Of a DNA stretch of 64,000 bases, positions 7,626 to 54,923 are shown in pieces. Both the position numbers and the translations under genes were made by a program. Below the pieces are notes generated by a model. That model had not been told where the DNA came from and made no database searches. It saw nothing but the letters and a program-made list of their open reading frames with translations. The first letter of the stretch is position 1. Each line of letters starts with the position of its first letter. The DNA comes from Streptoalloteichus hindustanus (lineage in GTDB: Bacteria; Actinomycetota; Actinomycetes; Mycobacteriales; Pseudonocardiaceae), in NCBI RefSeq assembly GCF_900129375.1, contig NZ_FQVN01000001.1:620001-684000 (forward strand). Direction: 5' to 3'.

Positions 7626-7719
7626 GGACAGCCCCCACCCGCCCTGGGGGGCGAGCCCCGCTCCAGCCTATCGACCACGAAAAGGCCGGCGAAAGTCCCG
7701 CCCGCCAGCCTGTGGACAA
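7626..7719 (-). repeat. Dispersed DnaA-box/promoter/GC-core element, copy 1
   Basis: The 47-nt core occupies 7626-7672 on the minus strand: GATAGGCTGGAGC, then GGGGCTCGCCCCCC, then three G-runs ending in CTGTCC. A TTGTCCACA box lies at 7711-7719, 41 nt before the -10-like TAGGCT, and a further box lies at 7783-7791. The -35 is poor in this copy. It fills the convergent gap between the MFS gene and the CCA-adding enzyme gene (7536-7886), in which I see no gene or tail-type terminator. Confidence 0.8.
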
Positions 7720-7886
7720 CTCAGGCCGGCATCACCCGACCATCGGGTTCATTCACTCCTTGGCACAACCGGAGCCAAACCCTGTGGACAACTATTCGCC
7801 ACGAGGCTCCGATAATGCTATAAGCCCGAACCCGACGGCCGCGAAAAGCAAATCGCGAGAAACACCCGCGCCGGTGAGGACCCCGC

Positions 7887-9392
7887 TCAGGCCTGCTCGG
7901 GCACGTCGACACCCTGCTCCCGCGCCCACCGGAACAGCTCGGCCACGGCCTCGTCGTGCTCCAGCGGCCCCCGGTCCAGGCGCAGCTCCTTGAGGTGCTT
8001 CCACGCCCGGCCCACCAGCGGCCCCGGCGGCAGCCCGAGCAACCGCATGATCTCGTTGCCGTCGAGGTCCGGCCGCACCCGGCGCAGGTCCTCCTCGTCG
8101 GACAACCGCGCGATGCGCGTCTCCAGGTCGTCGTAGGTGCGCTGCAACGCCTGCGCCTTGCGCCGGTTGCGCGTGGTGCAGTCGGCCCGCACGAGCTTGT
8201 GCAGCCGCGACACCAGCGGTCCCGCGTCGGTGACGTAGCGGCGCACGGCGGAGTCGGTCCACTGGCCCGTGCCGTAGCCGTGGAACCGCAGGTGCAGGTA
8301 CACCAGCTTCGCGACGTCCTCGGTGATCTCCTTCGAGAACCGCAGCGCCTTCAGCCGCTTGCGCACCATCTTCGCGCCCACCACCTCATGGTGGTGGAAG
8401 CTCACCCCGCCGCCCGACTCGAAGCGGCGGGTCGCCGGCTTGCCGATGTCGTGCAACAACGCCGCCAGCCGCAGCACCAGGTCCGGCTCGGCGTCCGGGT
8501 CGTCCCGCTTCTCCAGCGCGATCGCCTGGTCGAGCACCACGAGCGAGTGGTGGTAGACGTCCTTGTGCTGGTGGTGCTCGTCGATCTCCAGCCGCATCGC
8601 CGGCACCTCGGGCAGCACGTGGTCGGCCAGCCCGGTGTCCACGAGCAGCTCGATGCCCTTCCTGGGGTGCGCGCCGCACACCAGCTTGGTCAGCTCCGCC
8701 TGGACGCGCTCCGCCGTGATGCGGTTGATCTCCTCGGCCATCGCGGTCATCGCCGCCACGACCCTGGGCGCCGGCTCGAACCCGAGCTGCGACACGAACC
8801 GCGCGGCCCGCAGCATCCGGAGCGGGTCGTCGGCGAAGGACTCCTCGGGGGTGGCCGGGGTGTCCAGCACCCGGTCGACCAGCGCCTCCATGCCGTCGTG
8901 CGGGTCGACGAACCGGCGCTCCGGCAGCTCGACGGCCATGGCGTTGACGGTGAAGTCCCGCCGCACCAGGTCGCCCTCGATGCTGTCCCCGAAGGTGACC
9001 TCCGGGTTGCGGCTCGCCCGGTCGTAGACGTCCGCGCGGAACGTGGTGATCTCCAGCGTGGCGCCGCGCTTGGTCGCCCCGACCGTGCCGAACGCGATGC
9101 CGGTGTCCCAGACCGCCTCGGCCCAGCCGGCCAGCACGCGCTGCACCTGCTCGGGCCGGGCGTCGGTGGTGAAGTCGAGGTCGGTTCCGAGCCGACCGAG
9201 CAACGCGTCCCGCACGCTGCCGCCCACCAGGAACAGCCGGTGCCCCGCCGCGACGAACCGCTCCGCGAGCTCGTCCGCGACTGGTGCGATCCGGAGCAGC
9301 TCCAGCACGGCGTTGCGCTGGGCCTTGCCGCGGTGCACCGGCACCGGGCGCGCGGCGGAGTTGCTCGGCTGGGCGGAGTTGGTCGGCGGCAC
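7887..9392 (-). CDS. pcnA: CCA tRNA nucleotidyltransferase
   Basis: 501 aa class II CCA-adding enzyme, which builds or repairs the CCA end of tRNAs. The N-terminal nucleotidyltransferase head has [13 protein letters not shown] and the metal-binding DLDFTT (about residues 50-75). The [10 protein letters not shown] motif follows, then the RNA-binding domain with [12 protein letters not shown], and finally an HD phosphohydrolase-type domain with LLHDIGK. The GTG at 9392 is chosen because a minus-strand -10, TACCCT (9401-9406), sits 8 nt before it (leaderless). The open frame to 9761 would run through the divergent Nudix gene. In Mycobacterium the orthologue (Rv3907c) has the same divergent neighbours. 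Confidence 0.95.
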
Positions 9393-9400
9393 GGAGGACC

Positions 9401-9470
9401 AGGGTACTTGCCGCAGCTCACCTCGCCCGCGTGCGGAGGCGGACGCCGGCACCCTCCGCATCACTACCAT
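9401..9470. promoter_or_regulatory. Divergent promoter pair, both leaderless
   Basis: Minus-strand TACCCT (9401-9406) serves the GTG of the CCA-adding enzyme at 9392. Plus-strand TACCAT (9465-9470) is 7 nt before the Nudix ATG at 9478. Both mRNAs would begin at their start codons, so about 60 bp holds the control of two operons. Confidence 0.5.
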
Positions 9471-9477
9471 CACAACC

Positions 9478-9975
9478 ATGCCCCCGTCGTCCGGCCGTTC
9501 CGGCGGTAGCAAGCCGGGGCGCCGGAGCAGGCGCCGGGGTCGCCGGCTGCGGACCGTCGACGAGACCTCCGCCGGCGGGCTGGTGTTGGACAACGGGCGG
9601 CGCAACGCCGCGGTCATCGGCCGGCTGGACCGGCGCGGTCGACTGCTGTGGTCGCTGCCCAAGGGCCACATCGAGCCCGGCGAGACCGCGGAGCAGGCCG
9701 CCGTGCGCGAGGTGGCCGAGGAGACGGGCATCGAGGGCCGTGTGCTGACCCCGCTGGGCACGATCGACTACTGGTTCGTCGCCGACGACCGACGGGTGCA
9801 CAAGACGGTGCACCACTTCCTGCTGGAAGCGGTGGGCGGCGAGCTTTCCGACGAGGACGTGGAGGTCACCGAGGTGGCGTGGGTGCCGCTTGGTGAGTTG
9901 GACGAGCTGCTCGCCTACGCCGACGAGCGCAGGCTGGTGCGCCGGGCGGCCGAGCTGCTGGCGGAGCAGGCGTGA
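9478..9975 (+). CDS. NUDIX hydrolase (MutT4 position)
   Basis: 165 aa. A basic 24-residue head precedes a complete Nudix box: G-x5-E-x7-RE-V-x-EE-x-G-I, seen as [20 protein letters not shown] followed by TGI. Nudix enzymes hydrolyse nucleoside diphosphates linked to another moiety; the substrate is unknown. By position it corresponds to Rv3908 (mutT4), first gene of the murJ operon. Its stop overlaps the next start by 4 nt (GTGA), so translation is probably coupled. Confidence 0.9.
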
Positions 9976-12236
9976 GCGGGCGGGTTCCCTGGCGGCTGTG
10001 GGCCGCGCTGCTCACCGGTGTCGTCGCCGTCCTGACCACGCCGTTCGCCTGGCCGGCGGACGCGCAGCCCGGCAGGGGGGACGATCCGGCGCACGCGGTG
10101 CGGGTGGACGTGACCTCGCTGAGCCCGCAAGTGGTCACGGGGAACGGCCCGAACAAGGTGACCGTCACCGGACGGGTCACCAACACGAGCGCGCGGCGGA
10201 TCGAGAACATCGAGGTCAAGGTGCAGCGCGGCGAGGGGCTGCGGACGACCGACCAGCTCCGCGACGCGTTGCACGGGTCGGGCAACTTCGGCTACATCGT
10301 GCCCGCCCCGCACCAGGTCGCCGAGGGGGTGGACCCGGGGCAGAGCGTGACCTTCACGCTGGAGACGAAGCTCCGGCCGATCGCCTCGGACTCGTTGCGG
10401 GTGAACGAGCCGGGCGTGTACCCGGTGGCGGTCGTGGTCAGCGGACGCCCGCAGCGCGGCAACTCGGCCAACCTGGACGAGGCCCGCACGCTGCTGCCGG
10501 TGACCGGCCTGCCCGACGGCGGCCCGAACGCGTCCGCCGACCGGCCGGCGCCCCTGACGATGATGTGGCCGCTGGTCGACCGGCCCAGGGTCGTGGACAC
10601 CGCCGACGACGGCCGGGCCGTGCTGGGCGACGACGAGCTCGCGACCTCGCTCGCCGCCGGCGGTCGGCTGTCCGACCTGGTGCAGGCGGTCGAGCTGGAG
10701 GCGCAGGCGGGCTCCCCCCTCGCCGCCGCGCTGTGCCTCGCGGTCGACCCCGACCTGCTGGCGACCGTCGAGGCGATGACCAGGGGCTACCTGGTGCGCC
10801 GGGACGGGACCGCCGAGGTCGAGGGCGGCGGCGGGAACGCGGCGAAGAGCTGGCTGGGGCGGGTCAGGGAGATCGCCAAGGGGCGCTGCGTGCTGGCGCT
10901 GCCCACCGCCGACGCCGACGTCGTCGCCCTGTCCCGCGCCGGGTTGTCCGAGGCGACCGGCAGGGCCGTCACCGAGGGCGCCCGGACCGTGAAGGACGTC
11001 CTGGGCGTGGAACCGGTGCCCAGGACCGTGTGGCCGCACAGCGGCGTGCTCGACGAGCGCGCCATGGCCGACCTCGCCGCGGCGGGCACGCAGAGCGTGT
11101 TGCTGGAGCCGCGCGGCCTGCAGGGCGGCCCCGCCAACGCGGCCCCCGTCCGGGTGGCCACGGGCCAGAACCCGGGTGGACAGGCCCAGACCCCGGTCGC
11201 CCTCCGGGTCGAACCGCTGTTCGGCGCCGCGCTGGACCCGGTGGCCCGGGGCGCCGGCGAGGGCGGGCAGGCGGCGACCGCCGCCCAGAACGCCCTGGGT
11301 GTCCTGGTGCACCGGACGACGGTGAGCCGACCGGACGGCCCGCTCCTGCTCGCGCCGCCCCGCAGGTGGGCCCTGCCGGTGGACGCCCTGCGCTCCCTGC
11401 TGCAGACCGCGCGGTCCCTCGTCACGGGCAGGCTCGCCGAGGCGGCCGGGCTGGCCCAGCTCGCCGCCGCGCCCCCGGGCGCGGGCGCGGTCCCGCTGGC
11501 CTATCCCGTCGACGCCGGCGCCCAGGAGATCCCGCCCACCGTGACCGCGCGCCTGTCCGAGGTCAACAACCAGGTCCGGGACCTGCTCTCGGCGATGAAG
11601 CCGGACCCGGCCAACAACAACTACCAGCCGAGCAACCTGGTCAACCCCGTCCAGCTCGGCGTCCTCCGCGCGGCGTCCACGGCGTGGCGCGGCACTCCGG
11701 CGCTGGCCGAGCGGTGGACGGCGGCCACGGTCGCCCAGCTCGCCGACCTCCGGGACGGCGTGAAGGTCCTGGGCCAGGCCACCCCGTACACGCTGGCCTC
11801 CTCCGACAGCCCGCTGCCGCTGACGATCGCCAACACGCTGCCCGTCACCGTGCACGTCCAGATCAACATCCTCAGCGCCACCGGCCTGCGCACGCAGAAG
11901 CTGGAGGTCCAGCAGGTGTCGGCCCGGACCAGCCGGTCCCTGCGCATCCCCACCGAGGTGCAGCGCTCCGGGCAGTTCTACATCGACGTCTCGGTGTCAA
12001 CTCCGGGTGGCACACCTCTCGGTCAGACCACCAGACTCCGCGTCACCTCCAGCGCGTACGGCACCATCACCACGGCCATCACCGCCGGAGCGGCGGTCCT
12101 GCTGGTCGCGTTGGTCGCCCGCCGGCTCGTCCGCCGCGTGCGGGCGGCGCGCGCCGGCGCCACCACGGACCAGGGTGTTCCGGTGGCACACGGAACGACC
12201 GGGCGGTCCGGGGACGAAGGGGCGAGCGAGAGCTGA
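9972..12236 (+). CDS. DUF6049 membrane-anchored extracellular protein (Rv3909-like)
   Basis: 754 aa. An N-terminal signal sequence (hydrophobic residues about 10-28, cut after the WPADAQ region) is followed by about 670 mostly extracytoplasmic residues, then one C-terminal membrane helix (about 705-725) and a basic tail. This is the DUF6049 family, which lies between the Nudix gene and murJ throughout Actinobacteria; the mycobacterial member is reported essential. The function is unknown, but the operon points to peptidoglycan precursor flipping or its control. Start and stop overlap both neighbours (GTGA, TGATG). Confidence 0.85.
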
Positions 12237-14185
12237 TGCACGGGCGACAGGTGGGTCCGACAGGTCCGTACCGCCCGTCGGGGCCGACCGGTCCCGACGG
12301 CGCGTCGGCGCCTCGTCGGCCGGGGCCGGGGCCGGTGCCCCCACCGCCCGTCCGCCCTGCCGGGACCGGCGCCGGTCCCAGCGACCGGGGCGACGAGGTC
12401 GACCAGACCCAGCGCATCCCCCGCATCCCCCACGGCGCCGACGCGCCGACCGAGCCGATCCGGCGGGTTCCCGCGCCCCCGGCCGACTCCCTGGCGGCGG
12501 CCGAGACCCAGATCATCCCGACCGTCCCCGAGGGGCCGGAGGCGCTGGCGGCCGGCCAGTCCCAGCTCGAGTCCGGGGTGCGGGACGAGAAGTCGCTGGC
12601 CAGGGACAGCGCGTCGATGGCGGTCCCGACCCTGATCAGCCGCGCCACGGGGTTCCTGTCCAAGCTGCTGCTCGCCGCCGCGGTGGGCACCGGCGCGGTC
12701 AACGACTCGTACCAGATCGCCCAGACGCTGCCCATGATCATCAACGAGCTCCTGCTCGGTGGTGTGCTGACCAGCGTCGTGGTCCCGCTCCTGGTGCGGT
12801 CGCAGAAGGAGGACGCCGACGGGGGCGAGGGCTACACCCAGCTCCTGATCACCGTCTCGACGGTCCTGCTCGGCGTCGCCACCGTCGTCGCGACCGTGGC
12901 CGCCCCGCTGCTGGTCGGCATCTACGTCAGCTCGGACAGCCGCGCCGACCCGGCGATGACCGCGGCCCTGTCCTACCTGCTGCTCCCGGAGATCGTGTTC
13001 CTCGGGCTCAGCGCGTTGTTCGGCGCGATCCTCAACGCCAGGCACGTGTTCGGCCCACCCGCGTGGGCGCCGGTGCTGAACAACCTGGTCGTGATCGTCG
13101 TCCTGGCCGTCTACTGGGTGCTGCCGGGCAGCCTGCGCGCCGGGGACGTGAGCCTGAGCCACCCCAAGCTCCTGCTCCTGGGACTGGGCACCACCCTGGG
13201 CATCGTCCTGCAGGCCGGGTACATGGTGCCGGCGCTCCGGCGGTCGGGGTTCCGGTTCCGCTGGCGGTGGGGCTGGGACCGCAGGCTGAACGAGTTCGGC
13301 GGGCTCGCCGCCTGGGTGATCGGCTACGTCGCCGTCAGCCAGGTCGGGGTCACCGTGCACACCCGGGTGGCCGCCGACCACGCCGAGGGCGGCATCACGG
13401 CGTTCAACTACGCGTGGCTGCTGCTCCAGCTCCCCTACGGCATCCTGGGCTTCTCGCTGCTCGCGGCGATCATGCCCAGGATGAGCGCGGCGGCGGCGGA
13501 CGACGACGTCCCCGGCGTGGTGGCGCACCTGTCCCAGGGCGCGCGGCTGATGGCGGTCATGCTGATCCCGCTCAGCGGCGTGCTGACCGTGGTCGGCGGA
13601 CCGCTGGGCGTGGCGTTCTTCTCGTTCGGCCAGTCCAGCGTGACGAGCGCCAGCCGGGTGGGCCTCGCCCTGGCCTTCTCCGCGTTCGGGCTCTTCCCGT
13701 TCGCGCTGACCATGCTCCAGTTCCGGGTGTTCTACGCCATGAAGGACGCGCGCACCCCGACGCTGCTGATGGTCGTCATGATGGCCGTGAAGGTCCCGCT
13801 GTCCTACCTGGTGCCGCTCGTGTGCGACTCCGACCAGGTCGTGATCGGGCTGTCGCTGGTCAACTCCCTGAGCTTCGCCGCGGGCGCAGTGGCCGGCCAG
13901 ATCTGGCTGCGGGTCCGGCTGGGTCGGTTGGAGACCCGGCGGCTGCTGGTCTCGACCGGCAAGGCCACCGGGGCCACGGTGGTGGGCTGCGCCGCGGCGT
14001 TCGGGGTCGTCGCCCTGCTCTTCGTCGCGCTGCCCGACATGGGCGCGGTTCCCCAGGCGTGGATCACCCTCGTCCTGGAGTCGCTGCTCGCGTTGCTCGC
14101 CTCGTTCGGGCTGCTGATGGTGTTCGACGCCGAGGAGCTGCGGCCGGCGATCCGACGCATCGGCGGTCTCGTCCGCCGTCGTTGA
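12236..14185 (+). CDS. murJ: Lipid II flippase MurJ with proline-rich cytoplasmic head
   Basis: 649 aa. About 115 residues of Pro/Gly-rich hydrophilic sequence with TQ-containing stretches are followed by 14 membrane segments of the MviN/MurJ (MOP) family. These start at SMAVPTLISRATGFLSKLLL and include the conserved INELLLGG segment of the first helices. It moves lipid II across the membrane for wall synthesis. In Mycobacterium the MurJ protein carries a C-terminal pseudokinase fused in the same chain (Rv3910); here that part is a separate gene 97 bp downstream. Confidence 0.93.
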   Translation: MHGRQVGPTGPYRPSGPTGPDGASAPRRPGPGPVPPPPVRPAGTGAGPSDRGDEVDQTQRIPRIPHGADAPTEPIRRVPAPPADSLAAAETQIIPTVPEGPEALAAGQSQLESGVRDEKSLARDSASMAVPTLISRATGFLSKLLLAAAVGTGAVNDSYQIAQTLPMIINELLLGGVLTSVVVPLLVRSQKEDADGGEGYTQLLITVSTVLLGVATVVATVAAPLLVGIYVSSDSRADPAMTAALSYLLLPEIVFLGLSALFGAILNARHVFGPPAWAPVLNNLVVIVVLAVYWVLPGSLRAGDVSLSHPKLLLLGLGTTLGIVLQAGYMVPALRRSGFRFRWRWGWDRRLNEFGGLAAWVIGYVAVSQVGVTVHTRVAADHAEGGITAFNYAWLLLQLPYGILGFSLLAAIMPRMSAAAADDDVPGVVAHLSQGARLMAVMLIPLSGVLTVVGGPLGVAFFSFGQSSVTSASRVGLALAFSAFGLFPFALTMLQFRVFYAMKDARTPTLLMVVMMAVKVPLSYLVPLVCDSDQVVIGLSLVNSLSFAAGAVAGQIWLRVRLGRLETRRLLVSTGKATGATVVGCAAAFGVVALLFVALPDMGAVPQAWITLVLESLLALLASFGLLMVFDAEELRPAIRRIGGLVRRR

Positions 14186-14282
14186 GCCGCCACTTCCCGT
14201 ACCCTCGTCTCGGAGTCTCCGTCGCGCCGATGGGGGGCCGGCCGGGCGATCCCGGGAGCGCGCGGAGCGGGAGAGCGCACGG

Positions 14283-16013: not shown

Positions 16014-16126
16014 TTGTCCACAGTCACCCGAATTTATCCACAGCACAGGGTGAGCAGCTTTGACGCTGGGTGATTGATCGATAGGCTGGTAGCGGGGCTC
16101 GCCCCCCAGGGCGGGTGGGGGCTGTC
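16014..16126 (+). repeat. Dispersed DnaA-box/promoter/GC-core element, copy 2
   Basis: DnaA boxes TTGTCCACA (16014-16022) and TTATCCACA (16034-16042) start 20 bp apart. The promoter has TTGACG (16060-16065), a 16-nt spacer and TAGGCT (16082-16087). The 47-nt core is 16080-16126, with one extra T and one changed end base compared with copy 1. It lies in the 15861-16251 gap between the pseudokinase gene and sigM, the only copy in a codirectional gap. Transcription from it would head into sigM. Confidence 0.85.
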
Positions 16127-16238
16127 GCCAGGAGCGGGGAGAGGGGCGACGCGGTCGGGCCGGGCCCGTGGTCCCGCCCGGGGGCCGACGCCGGCGCTCA
16201 CGGACAGGTGTGGCGCATGTGGCTGCGGTGACTGTGGA

Positions 16239-16244
16239 TATCCT
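16239..16244 (+). promoter_or_regulatory. -10 element TATCCT of sigM (leaderless)
   Basis: TATCCT is 7 nt before the GTG at 16252, so the transcript should begin on the start codon. This makes the upstream in-frame GTGs at 16168 and 16228 unlikely starts. Confidence 0.45.
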
Positions 16245-16251
16245 CTCGCGC

Positions 16252-16860
16252 GTGACAGCCGCCGCCAGTTCGGACGCCGACCTCATCGCGGCACATGCCG
16301 CCGGCGATCCGCACGCGTTCTCCGAGCTGGTGCGCCGCCACCGAGACCGCATGTGGGCGGTGGCCCTGCGCACGCTCCGCGACCCCGAGGAGGCCGCGGA
16401 CGCCCTGCAGGAGGCGTTCATCTCGGCGTTCCGCGCCGCCTCGTCGTTCCGGGCCGAGTCCCAGGTGACGACGTGGCTGCACCGGATCGTCGTGAACGCC
16501 TGCCTGGACCGGGTCCGACGCCGGCAGAGCCGGCCCACCGTGCCCCTGCCGGAAGCCGGGCCCGGCGAACCCGCCGTGCCCCGCGACGCGATGGCCGAGC
16601 GGGAGACCCGACTGGCTGTGCGGGACGCGTTGGCGGAGCTCCCCGAGGAGCAGCGCGCCGCCATCGTCCTGGTGGACGTGGAGGGGTACTCGGTGGCCGA
16701 AACAGCCCAACTCCTGGGTGTCGCCGAGGGCACCGTGAAGAGCCGCTGCGCGCGCGGACGGGCCAAGCTCGCCAAACTCCTGGGACACCTTCGGAACCCC
16801 GATGCAGTTGCGAACGTCCCAGATGGCGCAGTGAGCACGCGTCGACGGGAGGGACGATGA
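16252..16860 (+). CDS. sigM: ECF RNA polymerase sigma factor SigM
   Basis: 202 aa, normal for an ECF sigma factor. Region 2 spans FSELVRRHRDRMWAVALRTL through WLHRIVVNACLDRVRRR. Region 4 spans ALAELPEEQRAAIVLVDVEG and the helix-turn-helix VAETAQLLGVAEGTVKSRCA. It directs polymerase to envelope or oxidative stress promoters. The assignment to SigM rests on position (murJ operon before, anti-sigma gene and trxB after, as Rv3911). It overlaps the next gene by 4 nt (ATGA), the usual sigma/anti-sigma coupling. Confidence 0.9.
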   Translation: MTAAASSDADLIAAHAAGDPHAFSELVRRHRDRMWAVALRTLRDPEEAADALQEAFISAFRAASSFRAESQVTTWLHRIVVNACLDRVRRRQSRPTVPLPEAGPGEPAVPRDAMAERETRLAVRDALAELPEEQRAAIVLVDVEGYSVAETAQLLGVAEGTVKSRCARGRAKLAKLLGHLRNPDAVANVPDGAVSTRRREGR

Positions 16861-24057: not shown

Positions 24058-24184
24058 TTGTCCACAGCCAGTTGTCCACAGTCACCCGATTTTGTCCACA
24101 GGGCAGAGCGGGGTGCTTGGCCGGCCTGAACTGGGCCGATAGGCTGGAGCAGGGCTCGCCCCCCAGGGCGGGTGGGGGCTGTCC
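24058..24184 (+). repeat. Dispersed DnaA-box/promoter/GC-core element, copy 3
   Basis: Three TTGTCCACA boxes at 24058-24066, 24072-24080 and 24092-24100. The promoter has TTGGCC (24117-24122), 17 nt and TAGGCT (24140-24145). The 47-nt core is 24138-24184. It lies in the convergent gap between the ligase gene and parB. Confidence 0.85.
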
Positions 24185-24673: not shown

Positions 24674-25660
24674 TCAGCCCCGTTCGGCGGTGCTGGGCGC
24701 CATCATCTGCACGATGCGCTCCAGATCGTCGACCGAACCGAACTCCACGACGATCCGTCCCTTCCGCCGGCCGAGCTCGACCTTGACCCGGGTGTCGAAC
24801 GCGTCCGAGAGCTTCTCGGCCAGGTCCTGGATGCCCGGCGCCTGCATCGGACGGCGAACCGCCGGCTTCGGCTTCGCCGGCTGCTCGCTCTTGGCGAGCA
24901 CGACCGCCTCCTCGGTGGCCCGGACCGACAGCCCCTCGGCCACGATGCGGGTGGCGAGCTCCTCCTGCGCGCCCGGCTCCTCCAGGCTCAGCAGGGCCCG
25001 CGCGTGCCCGGCGGAGAGCACCCCGGCCGCCACCCGCCGTTGCACGGGAAGCGGCAGCTTCAGCAGGCGGATGGTGTTGGTGATGACCGGGCGGCTGCGA
25101 CCGATGCGGCTGGCCAGTTCCTCGTGGGTGACCTCGAACTCCTCCAGCAGTTGCTGGTAGGCGGCCGCCTCCTCCAGCGGGTTGAGCTGCACCCGGTGGA
25201 TGTTCTCCAGCAACGCGTCCCGCAGCATGGCGTCGTCCGCGGTCTGCCGCACGATCGCCGGAATGCGCTCCAGCCCGGCCCGCTGGCTGGCCCGCCACCG
25301 GCGCTCGCCCATCACCAGCTCGTAGGAGTCCCGACCCAACTCCCGCACGACGATCGGCTGCATCAGCCCGAACTCGCGCACCGAGTGCTCCAGCTCGGCG
25401 AGGGCCTCCTCGTCGAAGACCTGACGCGGCTGCTTCGGGTTCGGCTGGATCGACCCGATGGGCACCTCGCGGTACACGGCACCGGCCACCCGCCCGGCCT
25501 CCACCGGAGCGTGCCCGTTCGGCACCGGCACCGCGCTCGCGCCGACCCCCGGGTCCCGCACCGCTCGGGTCCCGCCCAGCACCGCGGAGCCACCGGCCGA
25601 TGGCCCGCTCGGGATCAGGGCGGCCAGCCCACGACCGAGTCCTCCCTTGCGCTCGCTCAT
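24674..25660 (-). CDS. parB: Chromosome-partitioning protein ParB
   Basis: 328 aa. A variable head that starts [17 protein letters not shown] is followed by the N-terminal CTPase/ParB domain ([47 protein letters not shown], about 63-170). The helix-turn-helix parS-binding domain comes next ([21 protein letters not shown], about 180-200), then a C-terminal dimerisation domain. It binds parS and slides as a CTP-dependent clamp for origin segregation. Its start overlaps the parA stop by 4 nt. Confidence 0.97.
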
Positions 25661-47313: not shown

Positions 47314-48243
47314 TTGACGACGCCACCAGGGCCACCCGTCCCGCCGGCCGGCGAGCACCCGCCGGCGGTGGAGGGGTGCGTCCGTCACCCGGACCGGGCG
47401 ACCGGGCTGCGCTGCACGCGGTGCGGCCGCCCCGCCTGCCCGGAATGTCTGCGTGAGGCGTCCGTCGGCTACCAGTGCGTGGACTGCGTCGCCGACGGTC
47501 ACCGGGGCATGCGACAGGCGGTCACCGTCGCGGGCGCCGTGGTGCGCCGGACGCCGCTCGTCGTGCCGGTGCTCATCCTGCTCAACGTCGCCGTGTTCGC
47601 CTGGACCGCCGTACAGGCCGGCAGCATCGCCGACAACTCCGCGTCCCCGCTGTTCTCCCGCTGGGCCCTGTGGCCGCCCGCCGTGGCCGGCGGGCAGTGG
47701 TGGCGGGTGATGACCTCGGGCTTCCTCCACATCGGTCCCGTGCACCTGGCCCTCAACATGATCGCCCTGTGGGTGCTCGGGCGGGACCTGGAGATGATCC
47801 TCGGTCGGCTCCGGTTCCTCGCGGTCTACCTGGTCTCCCTGCTCGGCGGCTCGGCCGCGGTGTTCCTGCTGGGCGACACCCGGGTCCCGGTCGCCGGCGC
47901 GTCCGGCGCCGTGTTCGGGCTGATGGGTGCGACCGCGGTGGCCGTGGTCCGGCTCCGCCTCGACCCGCGCTCGACGCTCGCCGTGATCGGCGTGAACGTC
48001 GTGCTGAGCGTCGTGGTGCCCAACGTGTCGCTGCTCGGCCACCTGGGCGGCCTGGTCGTGGGCGCGGTGGCCGCGGTGGGCATGGTCTACGCGCCGGCCA
48101 GCCGGCGCGCCCTCGTGCAGTCGGGGGTGCTCGTCGGTCTTCTCGTGGTGGTCCTGGTCGTCTTCGTGCTCCGGGACGCCTCGTTCGGCGGGATGGAGTG
48201 CTTCGAGGTGGACAACGAGCCGTACTGCGTCCGGACCGACTGA
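47314..48243 (+). CDS. Rhomboid-family intramembrane serine protease with zinc-binding head
   Basis: 309 aa. The N-terminal 65 residues form a B-box-like zinc site (CVRHP, CTRCGRPACPECL, CVDC). Six to seven membrane helices follow, with WWRVMTSGFLHIGPVHLALNM, the catalytic serine in GASGAVFGLMGA and the catalytic histidine in SLLGHLGGLVVGA. It cuts membrane proteins within the bilayer. The start is TTG at 47314, only 8 nt after ppiA, so one operon. Rv0110-like rhomboids share this head. Confidence 0.92.
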   Translation: MTTPPGPPVPPAGEHPPAVEGCVRHPDRATGLRCTRCGRPACPECLREASVGYQCVDCVADGHRGMRQAVTVAGAVVRRTPLVVPVLILLNVAVFAWTAVQAGSIADNSASPLFSRWALWPPAVAGGQWWRVMTSGFLHIGPVHLALNMIALWVLGRDLEMILGRLRFLAVYLVSLLGGSAAVFLLGDTRVPVAGASGAVFGLMGATAVAVVRLRLDPRSTLAVIGVNVVLSVVVPNVSLLGHLGGLVVGAVAAVGMVYAPASRRALVQSGVLVGLLVVVLVVFVLRDASFGGMECFEVDNEPYCVRTD

Positions 48244-48278
48244 GCGGCTTCCGGTGGTTTCCCGCCCCGGGGGCGGGG

Positions 48279-48716
48279 TCAGCCCTCGTCCTCGGGGCGG
48301 AGCACGGCGAGCGCGTCGGCGACGTCGTCCGGCTCGGCGCCCAGGTCCAGCCGGGTGAGGACGAACAGGTGCTCGTGCTCCCCGTCCTCGACGTCGACCT
48401 CCAACACCGGGACGTCGCGGCCGAAGCGGCGGATGCGGACGACGCGCACCCGGCGCACCGTGGACCACGGGTAGCGGCGGCGACCGAGGAGCGAGCGGGT
48501 CGTCAGCCCCTCGTCGTCAGCCGAGAGGCGCGGGCGGCCGAGCGTGCCCTGCGCGGCGAGCAGGGCGAGGGCGAGCGCGGCGACGCCGGCCAGGAGGCGG
48601 GCGGCCGGGTCCTCGGTCGACAGCAGCCAGAGCAGCGCGCCCGCCAGCAGCAGCCACACGAGGGCGACCAGCCCGGGCGACGGGGACCAGCTTCGCGTCG
48701 TCACGGCGGTCAGCAT
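48279..48716 (-). CDS. PH-domain membrane protein (Rv0010c-like)
   Basis: 145 aa. Two membrane helices (about 16-35 and 40-58) are followed by a PH-like domain: RPRLSADDEGLTTRSLLGRR, the YPWSTVRRVRVV strand and VPVLEVDVEDGEHEHLFVL. Function unknown; the position between ppiA/rhomboid and crgA matches Rv0010c. The ATG at 48716 is favoured; a GTG at 48704 is possible. The frame open to 48923 overlaps the divergent thiolase gene. Confidence 0.82.
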   Translation of the reverse strand: MLTAVTTRSWSPSPGLVALVWLLLAGALLWLLSTEDPAARLLAGVAALALALLAAQGTLGRPRLSADDEGLTTRSLLGRRRYPWSTVRRVRVVRIRRFGRDVPVLEVDVEDGEHEHLFVLTRLDLGAEPDDVADALAVLRPEDEG

Positions 48717-48795
48717 CCCGCGTTCTTCTTCTCCTGTTTCGCACGGGTGGCCGCGAGTAGCATCGCGAGGAGAACGAGCTACTGAGGAGTAACAT

Positions 48796-49965
48796 ATGCG
48801 GGACGCGGTGATCTGCGCGGCGGTGCGCACTCCGGTCGGACGCCGCAAGGGCGGGCTGCGCGACGTGCACGCGGTGGACCTCGGCGCGGTGGCGCTGCGC
48901 GCGCTCGCCGAGCGGTCCGGCATCGACCCCGCCGTCGTGGACGACGTGCACTGGGGCTGCGTGACGCAGGTGGGCGAGCAGGCGTTCTGCGTGGGCCGTC
49001 AGGTGGTGTTGGCCGCCGGGTGGCCCGAGACCGTGCCCGCGGTGACCGTCGACCGCCAGTGCGGCTCGTCGCAGCAGGCGCTGCACCAGGCGGCCGCCGC
49101 CGTGATCTCCGGCCAGGCCGACGTCGTCGTCGCCGGGGGCGTCGAGTCGATGACCCGGGTGCCGATGGGCGCCAACTTCCTCAACGGCCCGGGCGTGCCG
49201 TTCGGCCCCGCTGTGGAACAGCGGTACGCCGACCGGCTCGCGAGCACCGGGGGCACGTTCAACCAGGGGCTCGGTGCCGAGTTGATCGCCGAGAAGTGGG
49301 GGCTGGGCCGGACCCGCCTCGACGAGTACGCCCTCGCCTCGCACGCGAAGGCCGCCGCCGCCCAGGACGCCGGCGCGTTCGACGAGGAGATCGTCCCGGT
49401 GCCGCTGCCGGACGGCTCGGCGGTGACGCGGGACGAGGGCGTGCGCCGCGACTCCACGCTCGACGCCCTCGCCGGGCTCAAGCCCGCGTTCCGCCCGGAC
49501 GGCGTGGTGACCGCGGCGAGCTCCTCGCAGATCTCTGACGGCGCGGCCGCGCTCCTGGTCACCACCTCCGAGCGCGCCCGTGAGCTCGGGCTGACCCCGA
49601 TCGCGCGGGTGGCGGCCACCGCGGTGCTCGGCGACGACCCGGTGCTCATGCTCACCGCGCCGATCCCGGCGACGGCGGTGGCGCTCCGCCGGGCCGGCCT
49701 GACCGTCGCCGACATCGGCGCGTTCGAGGTCAACGAGGCGTTCGCGGCCGTGCCGCTGGCCTGGCTCGTCGAGACCGGCGCGGACCCGGAACGGCTCAAC
49801 CCGCTGGGCGGCGCCATCGCGTTGGGCCACCCGCTGGGCGCGTCGGGCGCGCGGTTGACCACGACGTTGCTGCACCACATGCGGCGCAACGGCATCCGCT
49901 ACGGCCTGCAGACCATGTGCGAGGGCGGCGGGATGGCGAACGCGACCGTCTTCGAGCTGCTCTGA
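48796..49965 (+). CDS. Acetyl-CoA acyltransferase (thiolase)
   Basis: 389 aa, full-length thiolase. The nucleophilic cysteine lies in VDRQCGSSQQA (about 89), GGVESMTRVPMG follows, the catalytic histidine is in GHPLGASGARL and the second cysteine in CEGGGMANA. It cleaves or forms 3-ketoacyl-CoA in fatty-acid oxidation or related degradation. It is not part of the conserved oriC gene set, so it is a lineage insertion between the PH gene and crgA. GAGGAG precedes the ATG. Confidence 0.95.
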   Translation: MRDAVICAAVRTPVGRRKGGLRDVHAVDLGAVALRALAERSGIDPAVVDDVHWGCVTQVGEQAFCVGRQVVLAAGWPETVPAVTVDRQCGSSQQALHQAAAAVISGQADVVVAGGVESMTRVPMGANFLNGPGVPFGPAVEQRYADRLASTGGTFNQGLGAELIAEKWGLGRTRLDEYALASHAKAAAAQDAGAFDEEIVPVPLPDGSAVTRDEGVRRDSTLDALAGLKPAFRPDGVVTAASSSQISDGAAALLVTTSERARELGLTPIARVAATAVLGDDPVLMLTAPIPATAVALRRAGLTVADIGAFEVNEAFAAVPLAWLVETGADPERLNPLGGAIALGHPLGASGARLTTTLLHHMRRNGIRYGLQTMCEGGGMANATVFELL

Positions 49966-50159
49966 GTCAGTTTCGCGAGGCCAGTTCGCTGGGCCGGTTT
50001 CGCCGCGCCGTCCCGCTGGTCGGCCTCCGCCGTCGTTCCGCGCGACTGGCGGGGGCCGGGCTGCGGAGTGATCAGGCGGGGAGCTCACCAGAGGGCTGGG
50101 CGGCATGAGGCGCGGGATTGTTCCACGAGGAGGCTTCTTCCGCCTCTCGGAGGCTCGGG

Positions 50160-50272
50160 TTGTCCACAGGGGCCGCGAGTTGTCCACAGCGGAGCGTCAT
50201 GGTTTTTGACGCTCCGTGCTGGGCAGATAGGCTGGAGCGGGGCTCGCCCCCCAGGGCGGGTGGGGGCTGTCC
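50160..50272 (+). repeat. Dispersed DnaA-box/promoter/GC-core element, copy 4
   Basis: TTGTCCACA boxes at 50160-50168 and 50180-50188. The promoter has TTGACG (50206-50211), 16 nt and TAGGCT (50228-50233). The core is 50226-50272. Total 113 bp. It lies in the convergent gap between the thiolase gene and crgA. Confidence 0.87.
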
Positions 50273-50464
50273 GCGGTGCGGGGAGATCCCCGCGGGTGGC
50301 TCGGGGTGCCTCCGTCGGGCGTCGCGCCGTCGGGGGTGTTGGCGAGCAGAACTCGCGATCTTCGTTACTCCACAGGAAGTCCGTGTCTGTCCCCCGGATG
50401 GGGATGGGGACGGCCGCGCGGAGCGGGTGCGCCGGCGGCTCCGGTGGGGGTTGACCACAGGGCC

Positions 50465-50547
50465 TGTGGACAACTCGGTGGATAACTCCGGTTCCCCTGT
50501 GGATTGCGCACCTCCTGGGAGCGAGTTGTCCACAGGAGTTATCCCCA
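50465..50547. other. Second DnaA-box cluster in the thiolase-crgA gap
   Basis: TGTGGACAA 50465, GGTGGATAA 50477 (one mismatch), TGTGGATTG 50498 (imperfect), TTGTCCACA 50526 and TTATCCCCA 50539 (one mismatch), in 83 bp and both orientations. With copy 4 the gap 49966-50687 holds seven boxes, a density like that of oriC. No gene is supportable in this gap. Confidence 0.7.
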
Positions 50548-50610
50548 GTGGGGATGAGTTACAACGATGTGGTTCGCGCACTCTCCGCCGAACGGGCCAC
50601 CCGGAAGAAG

Positions 50611-50641
50611 ACGGCCCGGACGCGTGACACGTCCGGGCCGT
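50611..50641 (-). terminator. Terminator of crgA
   Basis: A 12-bp perfect stem (ACGGCCCGGACG / CGTCCGGGCCGT), followed on the minus strand by CTTCTTCC, 47 nt after the crgA stop codon. Confidence 0.8.
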
Positions 50642-50687
50642 GACGACGGCGGGCGACGAACGGAGCAGTGCCCCGGCGCCCGCGCGA

Positions 50688-50954
50688 TCAACGCCAACGC
50701 ATGGTCATGAGCAGACCGGTGATCATGAGCGCGAAGCCGACCGCGAAGTTCCACCCGCCCAGGTCCGCCATGAAGCCGATCTTGTCGCTGGCCAGGTAGT
50801 AGACCACCAACCAGGCCAGCCCCAGCAGCATCAGACCGAGCATCACGGTCACGTAGACCGGGTGCGACGGGCCGACGGCCTTGGCCCTGACCGGCGTGCG
50901 GCGGTCGGGCGGCGGGGTGTAGACGGTCTTCTTCCGGACCTTGGACTTCGGCAT
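50688..50954 (-). CDS. crgA: Cell division protein CrgA
   Basis: 88 aa, the expected size. Cytoplasmic head [15 protein letters not shown] and two membrane helices (about 33-53 and 68-85) with the conserved [20 protein letters not shown]-type end. CrgA coordinates septal wall synthesis with FtsZ and PBPs and, in mycobacteria, CwsA. Confidence 0.97.
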
Positions 50955-51056
50955 GCTGTCCTCGCCTCACGTCGGGCGGACGCTCTGGTTCTGACGGGCG
51001 AACGCGCCGAGCCGACCGGCGTTCTCCGGTTGGCGCGACACTCCCGCCCGCGTGAC

Positions 51057-51066
51057 ACGTTAACGT
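51057..51066. promoter_or_regulatory. Palindrome with divergent -10 elements (crgA / DUF881)
   Basis: ACGTTAACGT is a perfect palindrome and contains TAACGT on both strands, so it could serve as a -10 in both directions for crgA (100 nt away) and the DUF881 gene (150 nt away). Confidence 0.3.
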
Positions 51067-51216
51067 AACCGAGGAGGGGAGCGAACAGCTCGCGTCCCCC
51101 GACCGACGGAGCAACCCCACCCGACGGGAAGATCCGCTCGCGGGATCGGCCCGCCCGGATCGCGGGACCCGCTCGCGGGGCGACCCCGAGCAGCCCGAGT
51201 GAGGAGAGGAGTCCGC

Positions 51217-51969
51217 GTGCGCCGGCCCAGCCCGCCCCGGGGTGTTCGGACCGGCTGGCGGATCGCCGCCCCGGCTGTCTGCCTCCTCGCCGGCCTGCTG
51301 TTCGCGGTGAGCCACAATGCCGCCGACGGCTACGACCTGCGGGGCGGTCGGACCACCGAGTTGTCCGGACTGGTCAGGGACGCCGACGCGCGGGTCGGCG
51401 CCGCCGAGCAGCGGCTCGGCGAGCTGCGGGCCCAGCTCCGCCAGGAGGAGGCGGCCAGCGGGGCCGACCAGCGGGTCGCCGAGGCCCGCCGACGGGCCGA
51501 CGGCCTGAGCCCGGTCGTCGGGCTGACCCCGCTGCGCGGCGCGGGTCTGCGCGTCACGCTGACCGACGCCCCCCGCGGTCCCGACGGCCGCTACCCTTCG
51601 GGCGCCAAGCCCAACGACCTCGTCGTGCACCAGCAGGACCTGCAGAGCGCGCTGAACGCCCTCTGGGGCGGGGGCGCGGAGGCGATCTCCGTGGCCGACC
51701 AGCGCCTGACCAGCACGTCCGCCCCGCGCTGCGTGGGCAACACGCTCCTGCTGCACGGCCGCACCTACTCCCCGCCCTACGTGATCAACGCGATCGGCGA
51801 CCCCGACCGGATGACCGCCGCGCTGGAGGCCGAGCCCGGCGTCCGCGTCTTCCGGCAGTACGTGCAGACCTTCGGCCTCGGCTACCGCGTGGAGCGGGTG
51901 GATGACCTCCGCGTCCCCGGCTACACCGGTTCGCTGCGGCTCGACGACGCCCAGGAGGTGCCCCGGTGA
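51217..51969 (+). CDS. DUF881 membrane-anchored protein
   Basis: 250 aa. One N-terminal membrane helix (about 14-36), a coiled coil (about 45-95, AAEQRLGELRAQLRQEEAA) and an extracytoplasmic DUF881 domain with LRGAGLRVTLTDAP, NDLVVHQQDLQSALNALWGG and NTLLLHGRTYSPPYVINAIG. The family resembles FtsL-like/YlxW proteins and is near division genes; function unknown. The GTG at 51217 is chosen for GGAGAGGAG 6 nt upstream; a GTG at 51199 is in frame. Confidence 0.88.
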   Translation: MRRPSPPRGVRTGWRIAAPAVCLLAGLLFAVSHNAADGYDLRGGRTTELSGLVRDADARVGAAEQRLGELRAQLRQEEAASGADQRVAEARRRADGLSPVVGLTPLRGAGLRVTLTDAPRGPDGRYPSGAKPNDLVVHQQDLQSALNALWGGGAEAISVADQRLTSTSAPRCVGNTLLLHGRTYSPPYVINAIGDPDRMTAALEAEPGVRVFRQYVQTFGLGYRVERVDDLRVPGYTGSLRLDDAQEVPR

Positions 51970-53897
51970 CGCAGGACCACGGGGAGCAGCGTCCGCTTCC
52001 TCGGGACCTGCCCCCCAGGCCGGCGCAGGAGCGGAGACCGGGAGGTCGACGCCGTGCGCCGGAGCCCGACGAGCAGGGCGCGCCCCCCGCGCCCCGGGCC
52101 ACCCGCACCGGCCGGTACGCCGTGCCGCCGAGCCCGTCGTCCCCCGACGGCGGGACGGGCAGGCACGCGGTGCCGGGAGCCGGACCCACGACCGGTCCCA
52201 CCGCGACCGGCCGGCACTCCCGGCCGCCGGCGGACCCCGCCGCCCGCGGCGACTGGTTCGAGGCGGACGCGGCCCGCCAGCCCGACGGCCCCCCGACGGG
52301 CGCCTCGGGCCGGGGGACCCGTCCGACCCCCACGGCCAAGCCCGTGCCCAGGCGGACCCCGTCGCAGCGGTTCGCCCTGCCCGGAGCGGAGGAGCCGGCT
52401 CCCGAGCCGCCCCCGCCCGCCCGCCGGGTGCAGCCGGCCGTGCCCCCGCCGGTCCCAGCCCTCGACGGCCCGGCCCACGACGGCCCGGCCCGGCCGAACC
52501 CGGACGCCGAGGCGACCGACCTCGCTCCGGCGCTGGACGCCACCTCCCCGCCGCGCCCGCGTCGGGCCGTCCCCGCGGCGGGGCCGGTCCAGCGGCCACC
52601 GGCGCCCTCCCCGGACCCGTCGGCCGCCAACGTCCGGCCGCGCCGGTCCCGTGCCGCCGCCGTGCCCCAGCCTCCGCCGCCCGGAGTGCGGGACGAGGCG
52701 GCGCCTCGGGCCCGCCGCGCCGCCCCGGAGGCCCCGGACGGGCCACCGGCCGCTTCGCCCCGCGCCGCCGTGCCACCGACGGAGGTGGTCGCGCCTCCGG
52801 TCCCCGCGGGCCCGCCGGCCTCGCCGGCGACCGGGCCGGCGAAGGCCGTGCCCCGGCCGGCTCCCCGTCGTCGGCCGGAGCCGGCCGACGCCGAGACCGA
52901 CGTCCTGCCGAGGGTGGTCGGCCCGGACAGCGAGCCCACCGACGTGCTGCCCCGGGTCGTCGACGACCCGCCCGCGCCGGAGCCGGCGGAGACCGCCGAG
53001 GCCAGCGCCGACGGGGCGGACGGCCACGACGGCGAGGGCGCGGAAGCCGCCGCGCCGACCAGGGGCGACCGGATCCGCGCCGCGGTCAGGACGGCCGGTG
53101 AGCTGATGATCACGGCGGGGCTCGTCGTGCTCCTGTTCGTCGTCTACGAGGTCTACGTGACCGACTGGCTGTCGGCGGGCAAGCAGCACGACGCGACCAA
53201 CGCCCTCGACGAGCGCTGGAAGTCCGGCCAGGACCCGTTGCTGACGGGCGGGGAGCGCGGCGAGCACTACAACCTGGCCGAGGGCCAGGGCTTCGCCAAG
53301 ATCTACATCCCCAAGTTCGGCCCCGACTTCGCCTACACGGTCCTGGAGGGCACCACCGACCAGATCCTGGAGAGCGGACCCGGCCACTACAAGGGCACGG
53401 CGTTGCCGGGCCAGCCGGGCAACTTCGCCGTCGCCGGGCACCGGGTCGGCAAGGGCGCGCCCTTCAACGACCTGGACCAGCTGGAGTCCTGCGACTCCCT
53501 GGTCGTCGAGACCTCCTCGTCCTGGTACGTGTACCGGGTGCTGCCGCTGGGCGGCGAGGTGGAGAACTGGACGAGGAACGCCGACAGCAAGGGCAACCAG
53601 CCGCGGTGCGACCAGGTGTCCCCGCTCCGCACCAAGGACCAGGACGGCGGCCCCTACGCCAGGGTGCCCGGCCAGGAGATCGTCACCCCGGACCGGGGGG
53701 AGGTGATCGCCCCGGTGCCGAACAACTCCGCCGCCGCGGTGCCGAAGACCCAGCAGATCCCGCTGATCACCCTGACCACCTGCCACCCCCGGTTCTCGGC
53801 GAAGCAGCGGTTGATCGTCCACGGCCGGCTGGTCAGGGAGTGGAAGAAGGACCAGGGCAAGCCCGGCCAGCTCCCACCCGAACTGAAGGAGGGCTGA
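51966..53897 (+). CDS. Class E sortase with long disordered cytoplasmic head
   Basis: 643 aa. The first 375 residues are Pro/Arg/Ala-rich and probably disordered, with repeated ETDVLPRVV / EPTDVLPRVV motifs near 310-335. A membrane helix (about 380-400) and the sortase barrel follow, with GHYKGTALPGQPGNFAVAGH (catalytic His), the active cysteine in the class E signature TLTTCHPRFSAKQRL, and Arg in that motif. It attaches surface proteins, probably with LAxTG-type signals. Start overlaps DUF881 by 4 nt. Confidence 0.93.
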   Translation: MTQDHGEQRPLPRDLPPRPAQERRPGGRRRAPEPDEQGAPPAPRATRTGRYAVPPSPSSPDGGTGRHAVPGAGPTTGPTATGRHSRPPADPAARGDWFEADAARQPDGPPTGASGRGTRPTPTAKPVPRRTPSQRFALPGAEEPAPEPPPPARRVQPAVPPPVPALDGPAHDGPARPNPDAEATDLAPALDATSPPRPRRAVPAAGPVQRPPAPSPDPSAANVRPRRSRAAAVPQPPPPGVRDEAAPRARRAAPEAPDGPPAASPRAAVPPTEVVAPPVPAGPPASPATGPAKAVPRPAPRRRPEPADAETDVLPRVVGPDSEPTDVLPRVVDDPPAPEPAETAEASADGADGHDGEGAEAAAPTRGDRIRAAVRTAGELMITAGLVVLLFVVYEVYVTDWLSAGKQHDATNALDERWKSGQDPLLTGGERGEHYNLAEGQGFAKIYIPKFGPDFAYTVLEGTTDQILESGPGHYKGTALPGQPGNFAVAGHRVGKGAPFNDLDQLESCDSLVVETSSSWYVYRVLPLGGEVENWTRNADSKGNQPRCDQVSPLRTKDQDGGPYARVPGQEIVTPDRGEVIAPVPNNSAAAVPKTQQIPLITLTTCHPRFSAKQRLIVHGRLVREWKKDQGKPGQLPPELKEG

Positions 53898-53900
53898 CCC

Positions 53901-54056
53901 GTGTACGGCTGGATCTGGCGTCGGCTGCCGGGCTCGCGGGCGCTCAAGGTCGTCCAGGCGCTCGTGCTCGTCCTCGCCGTCGTCGCGTTGCTGCTGTTCG
54001 TGGTGTTCCCCTGGGTCGAGCCGATGCTGCCGTTCAACCAGGTGACCACGGGCTGA
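53901..54056 (+). CDS. Small one-TM protein after the sortase
   Basis: 51 aa, MYGWIWRRLPGSRALKVVQA followed by a membrane helix (about 19-40) and a short outside tail FPWVEPMLPFNQV. The GTG is 3 nt after the sortase stop codon, with GGAGGGCTGA as ribosome site. A short reading frame of this type next to actinobacterial class E sortases is plausible as a sortase partner; function unknown. Confidence 0.75.
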   Translation: MYGWIWRRLPGSRALKVVQALVLVLAVVALLLFVVFPWVEPMLPFNQVTTG

Positions 54057-54089
54057 GAAGCGGGGCGTGACCAGCGGCGTCGGCGTCCG

Positions 54090-54095
54090 TAAGCT
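54090..54095 (+). promoter_or_regulatory. -10 element of the trpG/pabA-like gene (leaderless)
   Basis: TAAGCT lies 6 nt before the GTG at 54102, another start-codon-proximal promoter. Confidence 0.45.
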
Positions 54096-54101
54096 GGCCG
54101 G

Positions 54102-54743
54102 GTGCGCGTGCTCGTCGTCGACAACTACGACAGCTTCGTCTACAACCTCGTCCAGTACCTGGCCCAGCTCGGCGCCGACCCCGTGGTCCGGCGCAACGAC
54201 GCGGTCGGGACGGGCGAGCTGGACGGGGTCGACGGGGTGTTGGTCAGCCCCGGTCCCGGCACGCCGGAGCGCGCGGGGGCCAGCATGGACGTCATCCGCC
54301 GGTGCGCGGACCGCCGTCTCCCGCTGCTGGGCGTGTGCCTGGGACACCAGGCGATCGGCGCGGTCTGGGGCGCCACGGTCGAGCGCGCGCCCGAGCTGCT
54401 GCACGGGAAGACGAGCCAGGTGCACCACTTCGGCGTCGGCGTGCTCGCCGGCCTGCCGGACCCGTTCACCGCGACCCGCTACCACTCGTTGGCGGTTCGG
54501 CCCGAGACCATCCCGGACGAGCTGGAGGTCACCGGGCGCACCGAGTCCGGTGTGGTGATGGCGATGCGGCACCGGGAGCTGCCGATCGAGGGCGTGCAGT
54601 TCCACCCCGAGTCGGTGCTGACCGAGGGCGGGCACCGCATGTTGGCGAACTGGATGGCCGGTTGCGGCCATCCCGTGCCCTCGGGGCGGGTCGCCGAGCT
54701 GGAGGCGGGGATGCGCCAGCTCGCCGCCGCCGCTCGTCCCTGA
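54102..54743 (+). CDS. pabA: Aminodeoxychorismate/anthranilate synthase glutaminase subunit
   Basis: 213 aa class I glutamine amidotransferase. Starts MRVLVVDNYDSFVYNLVQYL, oxyanion loop SPGPGTPERAG, nucleophilic Cys in LGVCLGHQAIG (about 80), His and Glu in GVQFHPESVLTEGG. It supplies ammonia to PabB or TrpE, for folate or tryptophan. The oriC-linked copy (Rv0013) is called trpG or pabA in different genomes, so the specific partner is uncertain. Leaderless GTG start. Confidence 0.93.
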   Translation: MRVLVVDNYDSFVYNLVQYLAQLGADPVVRRNDAVGTGELDGVDGVLVSPGPGTPERAGASMDVIRRCADRRLPLLGVCLGHQAIGAVWGATVERAPELLHGKTSQVHHFGVGVLAGLPDPFTATRYHSLAVRPETIPDELEVTGRTESGVVMAMRHRELPIEGVQFHPESVLTEGGHRMLANWMAGCGHPVPSGRVAELEAGMRQLAAAARP

Positions 54744-54811
54744 TCTCCCTGCCGCCGAGCTCCGCGGGATTGCGTTCGCTGAGCTGGGCTTTTCCTGGGT
54801 ACTGACCTGAG

Positions 54812-54923
54812 TTGTCCACAGGGCATCCAGTTATCCACAGGGCAGCGTGATGGCCTTGGGCGGTCCGGGTTGGGCCGATAGGCTGGAGCAGGGCTCGCCC
54901 CCCAGGGCGGGTGGGGGCTGTCC
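54812..54923 (+). repeat. Dispersed DnaA-box/promoter/GC-core element, copy 5
   Basis: DnaA boxes TTGTCCACA (54812-54820) and TTATCCACA (54831-54839). The promoter has TTGGGC (54856-54861), 17 nt and TAGGCT (54879-54884). The core is 54877-54923. It lies in the convergent gap (54744-55126) between pabA and pknB, which otherwise contains only the pknB terminator. Confidence 0.87.

Follow-up and report, generated by a model that had tools for sequence, protein, structure and literature searches.

A dispersed non-coding element with DnaA-type boxes, a promoter-like sequence and a G/C-rich hairpin in Streptoalloteichus and other Pseudonocardiaceae

The window analysed here, a 64,000-nt stretch of Streptoalloteichus hindustanus DNA (contig NZ_FQVN01000001.1, positions 620,001 to 684,000), contains five copies of a short non-coding unit in which DnaA-type boxes precede a promoter-like sequence and a G/C-rich hairpin. 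Genome-wide (7.28 Mb, 33 contigs), pattern matching gave 86 elements, the five of the window among them. Between species the core is kept nearly letter for letter while the surroundings have drifted, which suggests, from sequence comparison, that the copies probably have a job. Our tentative reading is that of a transcription unit under DnaA-box control that would make a short hairpin RNA and has been amplified to many copies.

Architecture and conservation

Column conservation over the 86 copies reveals conserved islands amid free sequence, and both this anatomy and its conservation are well supported. The parts follow the order boxes, -35-like TTG, TAGGCT (followed by GG) and GGGGCTCGCCCCCC-AGGGCGGGTGGGGGCTG. 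The boxes are TTGTCCACAG or near variants; PMC4210621 gives TT(G/A)TCCACA as the classic DnaA box. At least two recognised boxes are present in 73 copies, one in 11 and none in 2, and the last box starts at -46/-47 relative to TAGGCT in 78 of the 84 box-bearing copies. From one box to the next the distance is usually 18-20 bp (58 intervals) or 51-53 bp (18 intervals), close to whole helical turns. A palindrome of the type ACCCGA...TCGGGT was observed near or between the boxes in seven copies (L062, L090, L105, L108 and others).

The -35 position is T-rich, and TTG precedes TAGGCT with a spacer of 16 bp in 8 copies, 17 bp in 20 and 18 bp in 7 (n=86), with 0-2 copies at each spacer of 8-15 and 19-23 bp. 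The peak at 16-18 bp matches what would be expected of a sigma-70-type promoter, a geometry that the original prediction had not noted. The first T, the A and the last T of TAGGCT are invariant across the 86 copies, as the extraction pattern TA[GC]G[CT]T required. In the core, (A/G)GGGCTCGCCCCCC is followed by five less fixed bases and GGGTGGGGGCTG.

These sequences are not the product of chance, as the original prediction had argued: the window has 21 occurrences of TTNTCCACA where 0.32 would be expected, and genome-wide the core pattern, with up to 3 mismatches, gave 89 matches (49+40) against 4 (2+2) for the reversed pattern. Four matches were dropped on the printed sequence (C14:554574, C14:565632, C18:136807, C19:7607) and copy 2 of the window, missed by the core pattern owing to an inserted base, was added separately, giving the 86.

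Conservation was measured against Streptoalloteichus tenebrarius DSM 40477 (G001), from the same genus, using 81 elements out of 144 pattern matches in that genome. An orthologue with both flanks matching was found for 32 of the 86 elements, 27 of these orthologues coming from loci found by the box-TAGGCTGG pattern; orthologues with a lost core would escape the comparison. Within the 32 pairs, the two spacers are 62% identical and the stretch from -150 to -101 is 60% identical; non-orthologous pairs reach 52-59% there. By comparison, GATAGGCTGG is 96% identical, GGGCTCGCCCCCC 99% and GGGTGGGGGCTG, which no search pattern required, 99% (379 of 384 positions); the last box reaches 92%, the first-box region 84% and the -35 region 67%. 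The first of two suggestions made in the original prediction, selection or recent spread, thus gains support from a core kept at orthologous sites with diverged surroundings.

Since non-orthologous pairs are as alike in the core as orthologous ones, homogenisation of the cores is possible. The core subtype, however, is retained between orthologues (18 A/A, 7 G/G, 5 exchanged and 2 unclassed; p=0.001 for the 30 classed pairs). This speaks against wholesale conversion, and against conversion as the sole cause of core identity.

The second suggestion, recent spread, also finds examples in pairs of nearly identical elements whose flanks are otherwise unrelated: L001/L072 (95.6% over 316 bp), L067/L089 (95.6% over 294 bp) and L005/L014 (100% over 112 bp, from box to core end). 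L001/L072 may be an ordinary segmental duplication, because on reading the shared segment enters an apparent neighbouring gene. In G001, at least 15 same-strand pairs lie 192-287 bp apart among the pattern positions listed (L157/L158 and L162/L163, for example), and the L014 site has one element in our genome and two in S. tenebrarius. We searched 16 of our sites in G001 and located both flanks for 11; the element is present in 9 and absent from 2 (L027 and L067), where the G001 sites are too diverged for exact ends. At L067 a loss rather than a gain is possible, because the G001 site keeps TGTCCACAG.

Such observations invite a rival explanation, a non-autonomous mobile repeat akin to repetitive extragenic palindromic (REP) sequences or miniature inverted-repeat transposable elements (MITEs), whose boxes and core would be recognition signals of a putative transposase and whose conservation would reflect recent spread or conversion rather than a function of each copy. 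The paired copies with different flanks (L067/L089, L005/L014), the tandem pairs of G001, the two element-less sites out of 11 and a copy number running from 1 to over 100 between genera all speak for it, as does the oppositely oriented element that another genus has at the copy-2 site (see below). We nevertheless consider it somewhat unlikely: orthologous sites have kept the core even though their spacers have diverged almost to saturation, the core subtype is retained, the segments shared by duplicate pairs have no common ends, and the promoter spacing is hard to account for as a transposase signal. Ends like those of an insertion sequence (IS) and target duplications, as expected of an IS-derived MITE, were not seen in five near-identical pairs and two element-less sites, but these sites are diverged.

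The copies of the window are the following.

Copy 1, 7626-7719, minus strand: box TTGTCCACA 7711-7719, GATAGGCTGG 7663-7672, G/C hairpin 7626-7659; a further box at 7783-7791; between the convergent genes of a major facilitator superfamily transporter (6219-7535, plus) and a PolyA_pol/HD protein (7887-9392, minus).
Copy 2, 16014-16126, plus strand: boxes 16014-16022 and 16034-16042, TTGACG 16060-16065, GATAGGCTGG 16080-16089, hairpin 16094-16126; neighbours co-directional, the next gene encoding a sigma-70 family protein (16234-16860, plus).
Copy 3, 24058-24184, plus strand: boxes 24058-24066, 24072-24080 and 24092-24100, GATAGGCTGG 24138-24147, hairpin 24152-24184; neighbours convergent, adjoining parB (24674-25582, minus).
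Copy 4, 50160-50272, plus strand: boxes 50160-50168 and 50180-50188, TTGACG 50206-50211, GATAGGCTGG 50226-50235, hairpin 50240-50272; between convergent genes for a thiolase (48796-49965, plus) and crgA (50688-50954, minus).
Copy 5, 54812-54923, plus strand: boxes 54812-54820 and 54831-54839 (TTATCCACA), GATAGGCTGG 54877-54886, hairpin 54891-54923; between convergent genes for a glutamine amidotransferase (54102-54743, plus) and a PASTA kinase (55127-57121, minus).

All five were found at the positions and strands first proposed, and four lie between convergent genes by our own gene calls, copy 2 being the exception. The description of a near-identical 113-bp element holds for the boxes and the core of about 47 nt; it is overstated for the whole, because the approximately 36 bp between last box and core differ freely. 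Copy 2 has one extra base (GGTAGC) and ends in CTGTCG. Copies 1 and 3 have orthologues in G001. At the copy-1 site, G010 has a 67-bp gap without element and none was seen in G030; at the copy-3 site none was seen in G009, G029 and G030. The copy-2 site shows none in G030 and G009, and in G029 (L151, another genus) it holds an element in opposite orientation, which is an independent insertion or an inversion.

Distribution in Pseudonocardiaceae and the cyd operon

The exact box-TAGGCTGG architecture was found in 63 of 249 Pseudonocardiaceae genomes, and a sequence-only model built from 52 sequences had matches in 59 of 120 genomes and 26 of 44 genera; the scan scored at most 34 matches per genome, so copy counts are lower bounds. 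For 80 of at least 102 stretches that matched, the genera listed are ones that we take to be Pseudonocardiaceae, apart from one metagenome contig labelled Melainabacteria. This Candidatus Melainabacteria record (L279/L054) is identical to G011 over 1,844 bases and is probably a mislabelled metagenome bin, since G011 belongs to Pseudonocardiaceae. In genera g31 and g67 (L123, L126, L127), boxes and TAGGCTGG often go with GTCGGT at the -35 place and a shorter hairpin; GTCGGT precedes TAGGCT in 10 of the 12 listed matches of the box-TAGGCTGG pattern in G171. This arrangement presumably resembles the RecA-NDp/PafBC DNA-damage promoter.

Each genome examined in genera g14, g17, g18, g20 and g33 has one model match. 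In g14 and g33 (three of four genomes viewed in each), it sits antisense in the cydA-cydB gap; searching from cydB revealed a copy there in g18 and g20 as well, and g63 also has one. The antisense cydA-cydB copy is thus present in five genera in all, Pfam confirming cydA and cydB in representatives, and in g17 no copy was seen near cydB. Within 1.5 kb of cydB, a clear element was found in 6 of 30 genomes (five by pattern, G020 by reading), and on reading G015 has a degenerate core upstream of cydB.

Four genomes from three genera (G000, G001, G008 and G022) have an antisense copy inside cydD itself, read through in frame without a stop, at the linker between the membrane and ATPase parts.

cydD copies, all antisense and in frame: L219 at about 3495 (G000, contig C19, about 780,783), L223, L229 and L233.

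Against the CydD model TIGR02857 (cut-off 435), the partial proteins reach 428, 432, 417 and 388 bits. Among genomes without the element, the linker was readable in two, G010 and G012, and is shorter in both. Judging from these sequences, the cyd position is plausibly the ancestral site of the family. In six g15 genomes the common copy lies beside a cwlM-like amidase gene, a gene type found about 10 kb from dnaA in the window.

One could also suppose that the element serves the cyd operon as an antisense RNA gene and that its dispersed copies are just duplication by-products. Copies in the cyd operon of eight genera, antisense wherever seen, and their presence in 4 of the 5 single-match genera fit this idea, which we find improbable: 32 dispersed copies are conserved between species as strongly as functional sites would be, and 24 of the 30 genomes checked have no clear element within 1.5 kb of cydB.

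Downstream of the elements of another genome, G027, we observed further repeats, modules some 300-760 bp in length that contain long inverted repeats (AACCACGGACTGTC...GACAGTCCGTGGTT), from +60 to about +970 from the core (L396, L400, L404, L406, L412, L416-L421), some of which run past 900 bp. They are another dispersed family.

Gene context, the replication origin and possible function

According to our own codon-usage gene calls, the neighbouring genes are convergent at 49 of the 86 copies, co-directional at 18 and 14 (sense and antisense, respectively) and divergent at 3; the cydD copy overlaps an open frame, and one context was not classed. Among gaps of at least 200 bp, 47 of the 82 with an element are convergent against 3 of the 30 without (p=4e-6). 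G027 has 11 convergent, 5 and 5 co-directional and 1 divergent, with 7 not classed or overlapping. Because of this context, the element is not as a rule the promoter of its neighbour. A promoter for the adjacent downstream gene would agree with the promoter-like geometry and with copy 2, which sits 108 bp before the sigma-70 family gene, but the prevalence of convergent sites and a sense orientation hardly more frequent than antisense among co-directional neighbours make it highly improbable.

The copies had been described as lying around oriC. This does not hold as a confinement, and an oriC-only feature is ruled out by the 86 copies genome-wide; it does hold as an origin-proximal enrichment. 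In our genome, 12 of the 86 lie within 130 kb of oriC against 3.1 expected genome-wide (p=9e-5) or 6.1 with the same contig as baseline (p=0.01), and 16 within 250 kb against 11.8 expected on the contig (p=0.08), counts that are not independent of the finding because the window was the starting point. Density on the element-bearing contigs varies from 1.6 to 44 per Mb. G027 is a single 11.76-Mb contig that starts about 1.8 kb before dnaN and was treated as circular. Its 29 exact core matches are all found no farther than 3.03 Mb from base 1, which leaves the opposite 6.2 Mb without any; with a median distance of 0.36 Mb they lie closer to oriC than do 44 tRNA loci (1.32 Mb; p=0.007). G108 has six exact matches (at least 13 model matches), all of which cluster in 1.75 Mb of its 9.49 Mb, a stretch that holds the cwlM copy. 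Other complete genomes have few exact core matches (4 in G034, 2 in G022), and G080 and G023 have none although the model found 13 and 4.

The link with DnaA boxes is quantitative as well. Our genome has 187 exact TTGTCCACAG sites, of which 127, around two thirds, belong to elements, within 160 bp upstream of the 86 cores; 34 genomes outside the genus have 3 to 89 exact sites. A recognised box accompanies the core in 84 of the 86 copies, contrary to a core standing apart from DnaA boxes. Several DnaA-type boxes per locus outside oriC, a feature of DnaA-box loci of the datA/DARS kind, are found here too. The element could accordingly be imagined as a distributed datA or DARS, a DnaA-titration or modulating site whose promoter merely clears or loads DnaA by passing transcription, with the RNA as a by-product. 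The share of TTGTCCACAG sites inside elements, the four recognised boxes in the dnaA-dnaN gap and the origin bias favour such a site, and so does the lack of orientation bias relative to the fork, only 15 of 29 G027 copies being co-directional with replication (counted from strands), a figure that also led us to reject a fork-direction signal. Yet the hairpin is conserved better than the boxes, most G027 copies have a single box, and single-copy relatives manage without a box reservoir, so that we judge this alternative rather unlikely.

In the transcription unit that we tentatively favour, one to few DnaA-type boxes in fixed register would stand upstream of a promoter of the housekeeping-sigma type (TTGnnn and TAGGCT or TAGACT, 16-18 bp apart). 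The first transcribed bases would be those of the conserved G run, and the short RNA, opening with GGGG..CCCCCC..GGGTGGGGG, could fold into the G/C hairpin. DnaA bound to the boxes, or a protein with the same site, would gate the promoter. Each copy would thereby set a short self-terminating transcript between mostly convergent genes, and, with about two thirds of the exact TTGTCCACAG sites inside units that are densest near oriC, the copies jointly may soak up free DnaA and serve as a read-out of it. From an old antisense position in the cyd operon the unit would later have spread, its copies being held by purifying selection. We count in favour the geometry of boxes and TAGGCT, the TTG spacing, the conservation of orthologues, the TTGTCCACAG share, the excess of convergent sites, the in-frame retention in cydD and the origin bias in G027 and our genome.

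Several points weigh against this transcription unit. The promoter spacing expected of a small RNA gene is found, yet only 35 of the 86 copies have TTG at 16-18 bp and 38 at 15-19 bp; TTG also occurs at spacers of 24-26 bp in 3-4 copies each. In other genera 21 of 166 elements, many of them found with TAGRCTGG, have TTG at 16-18 bp, and in the printed sequence of G027 TTGACC is only 14-15 bp away from TAGACT. The core folds no better than shuffles (z 0.17, 0.33 and 0.99). Covariation is almost absent, with a double change in 1 of 8 predicted pairs, and is nearly uninformative because the paired columns hardly vary. Part of the core identity is conditioned on searching with box or core patterns, and for the same reason decayed copies are under-counted. 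The model scan left 61 of the 120 family genomes without element. As for the origin bias, the tRNA loci of G027 are themselves origin-biased, and a greater age of the DNA near oriC may account for part of the effect. Least secure are the putative binding of DnaA, the predicted transcription and the role that the RNA or the sites would have in the cell.

A wider version, a chromosome-wide replication-control layer of about 80-140 DnaA-gated units, densest near oriC, that would both titrate DnaA and signal its level by short G-rich hairpin RNAs, possibly forming R-loops, and that would derive from the antisense cyd unit, seems to us rather unlikely.

Comparison with known systems

The original prediction knew of no named element of this composition, and our searches agree. 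Rfam 15 gave no match for the whole window at gathering scores or for an 801-bp stretch and five loci at permissive thresholds, which rules out a known RNA family within the parts searched. None of the papers listed in the literature searches concerns such an element, as judged by titles or abstract openings. Phage or plasmid origin was rejected with copy 4 alone, which has no match in phages and plasmids, and viral origin with the core pattern, which has none in viral contigs.

Dispersed bacterial repeats are usually regarded as decaying parasites. The present family is kept copy by copy between species, with no earlier description in the literature and databases searched; it holds most exact TTGTCCACAG sites of its genome, crowds near the origin where this is measurable, and persists within a protein-coding gene without breaking its frame. 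As a case of non-coding repeats drawn into chromosome-wide control, it lends itself to testing.

Like Correia elements of Neisseria, BOX of pneumococcus and REP or bacterial interspersed mosaic elements, the family is non-coding, intergenic and hairpin-forming, about 100-300 bp long with an inner promoter-like sequence, and present in tens to over 100 copies. Unlike them, it has shown no terminal inverted repeats or target duplications at the diverged sites inspected, has DnaA-type boxes at a fixed distance from the promoter, per-copy conservation between species and an origin bias, and was found only in Pseudonocardiaceae in the searches made. With datA/DARS of E. coli and the DnaA-box cluster of Streptomyces it shares a non-coding nature, several boxes outside oriC and a tendency to lie near the origin; those are one or few loci, whereas here there are many small copies, in each of which one to few boxes are combined with a promoter and a G/C hairpin. 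Actinobacterial small RNAs such as 6C RNA are similar in having their own promoter, which is only predicted for our element, and a C-run hairpin, but the present family has no Rfam match in the parts searched and a far higher copy number.

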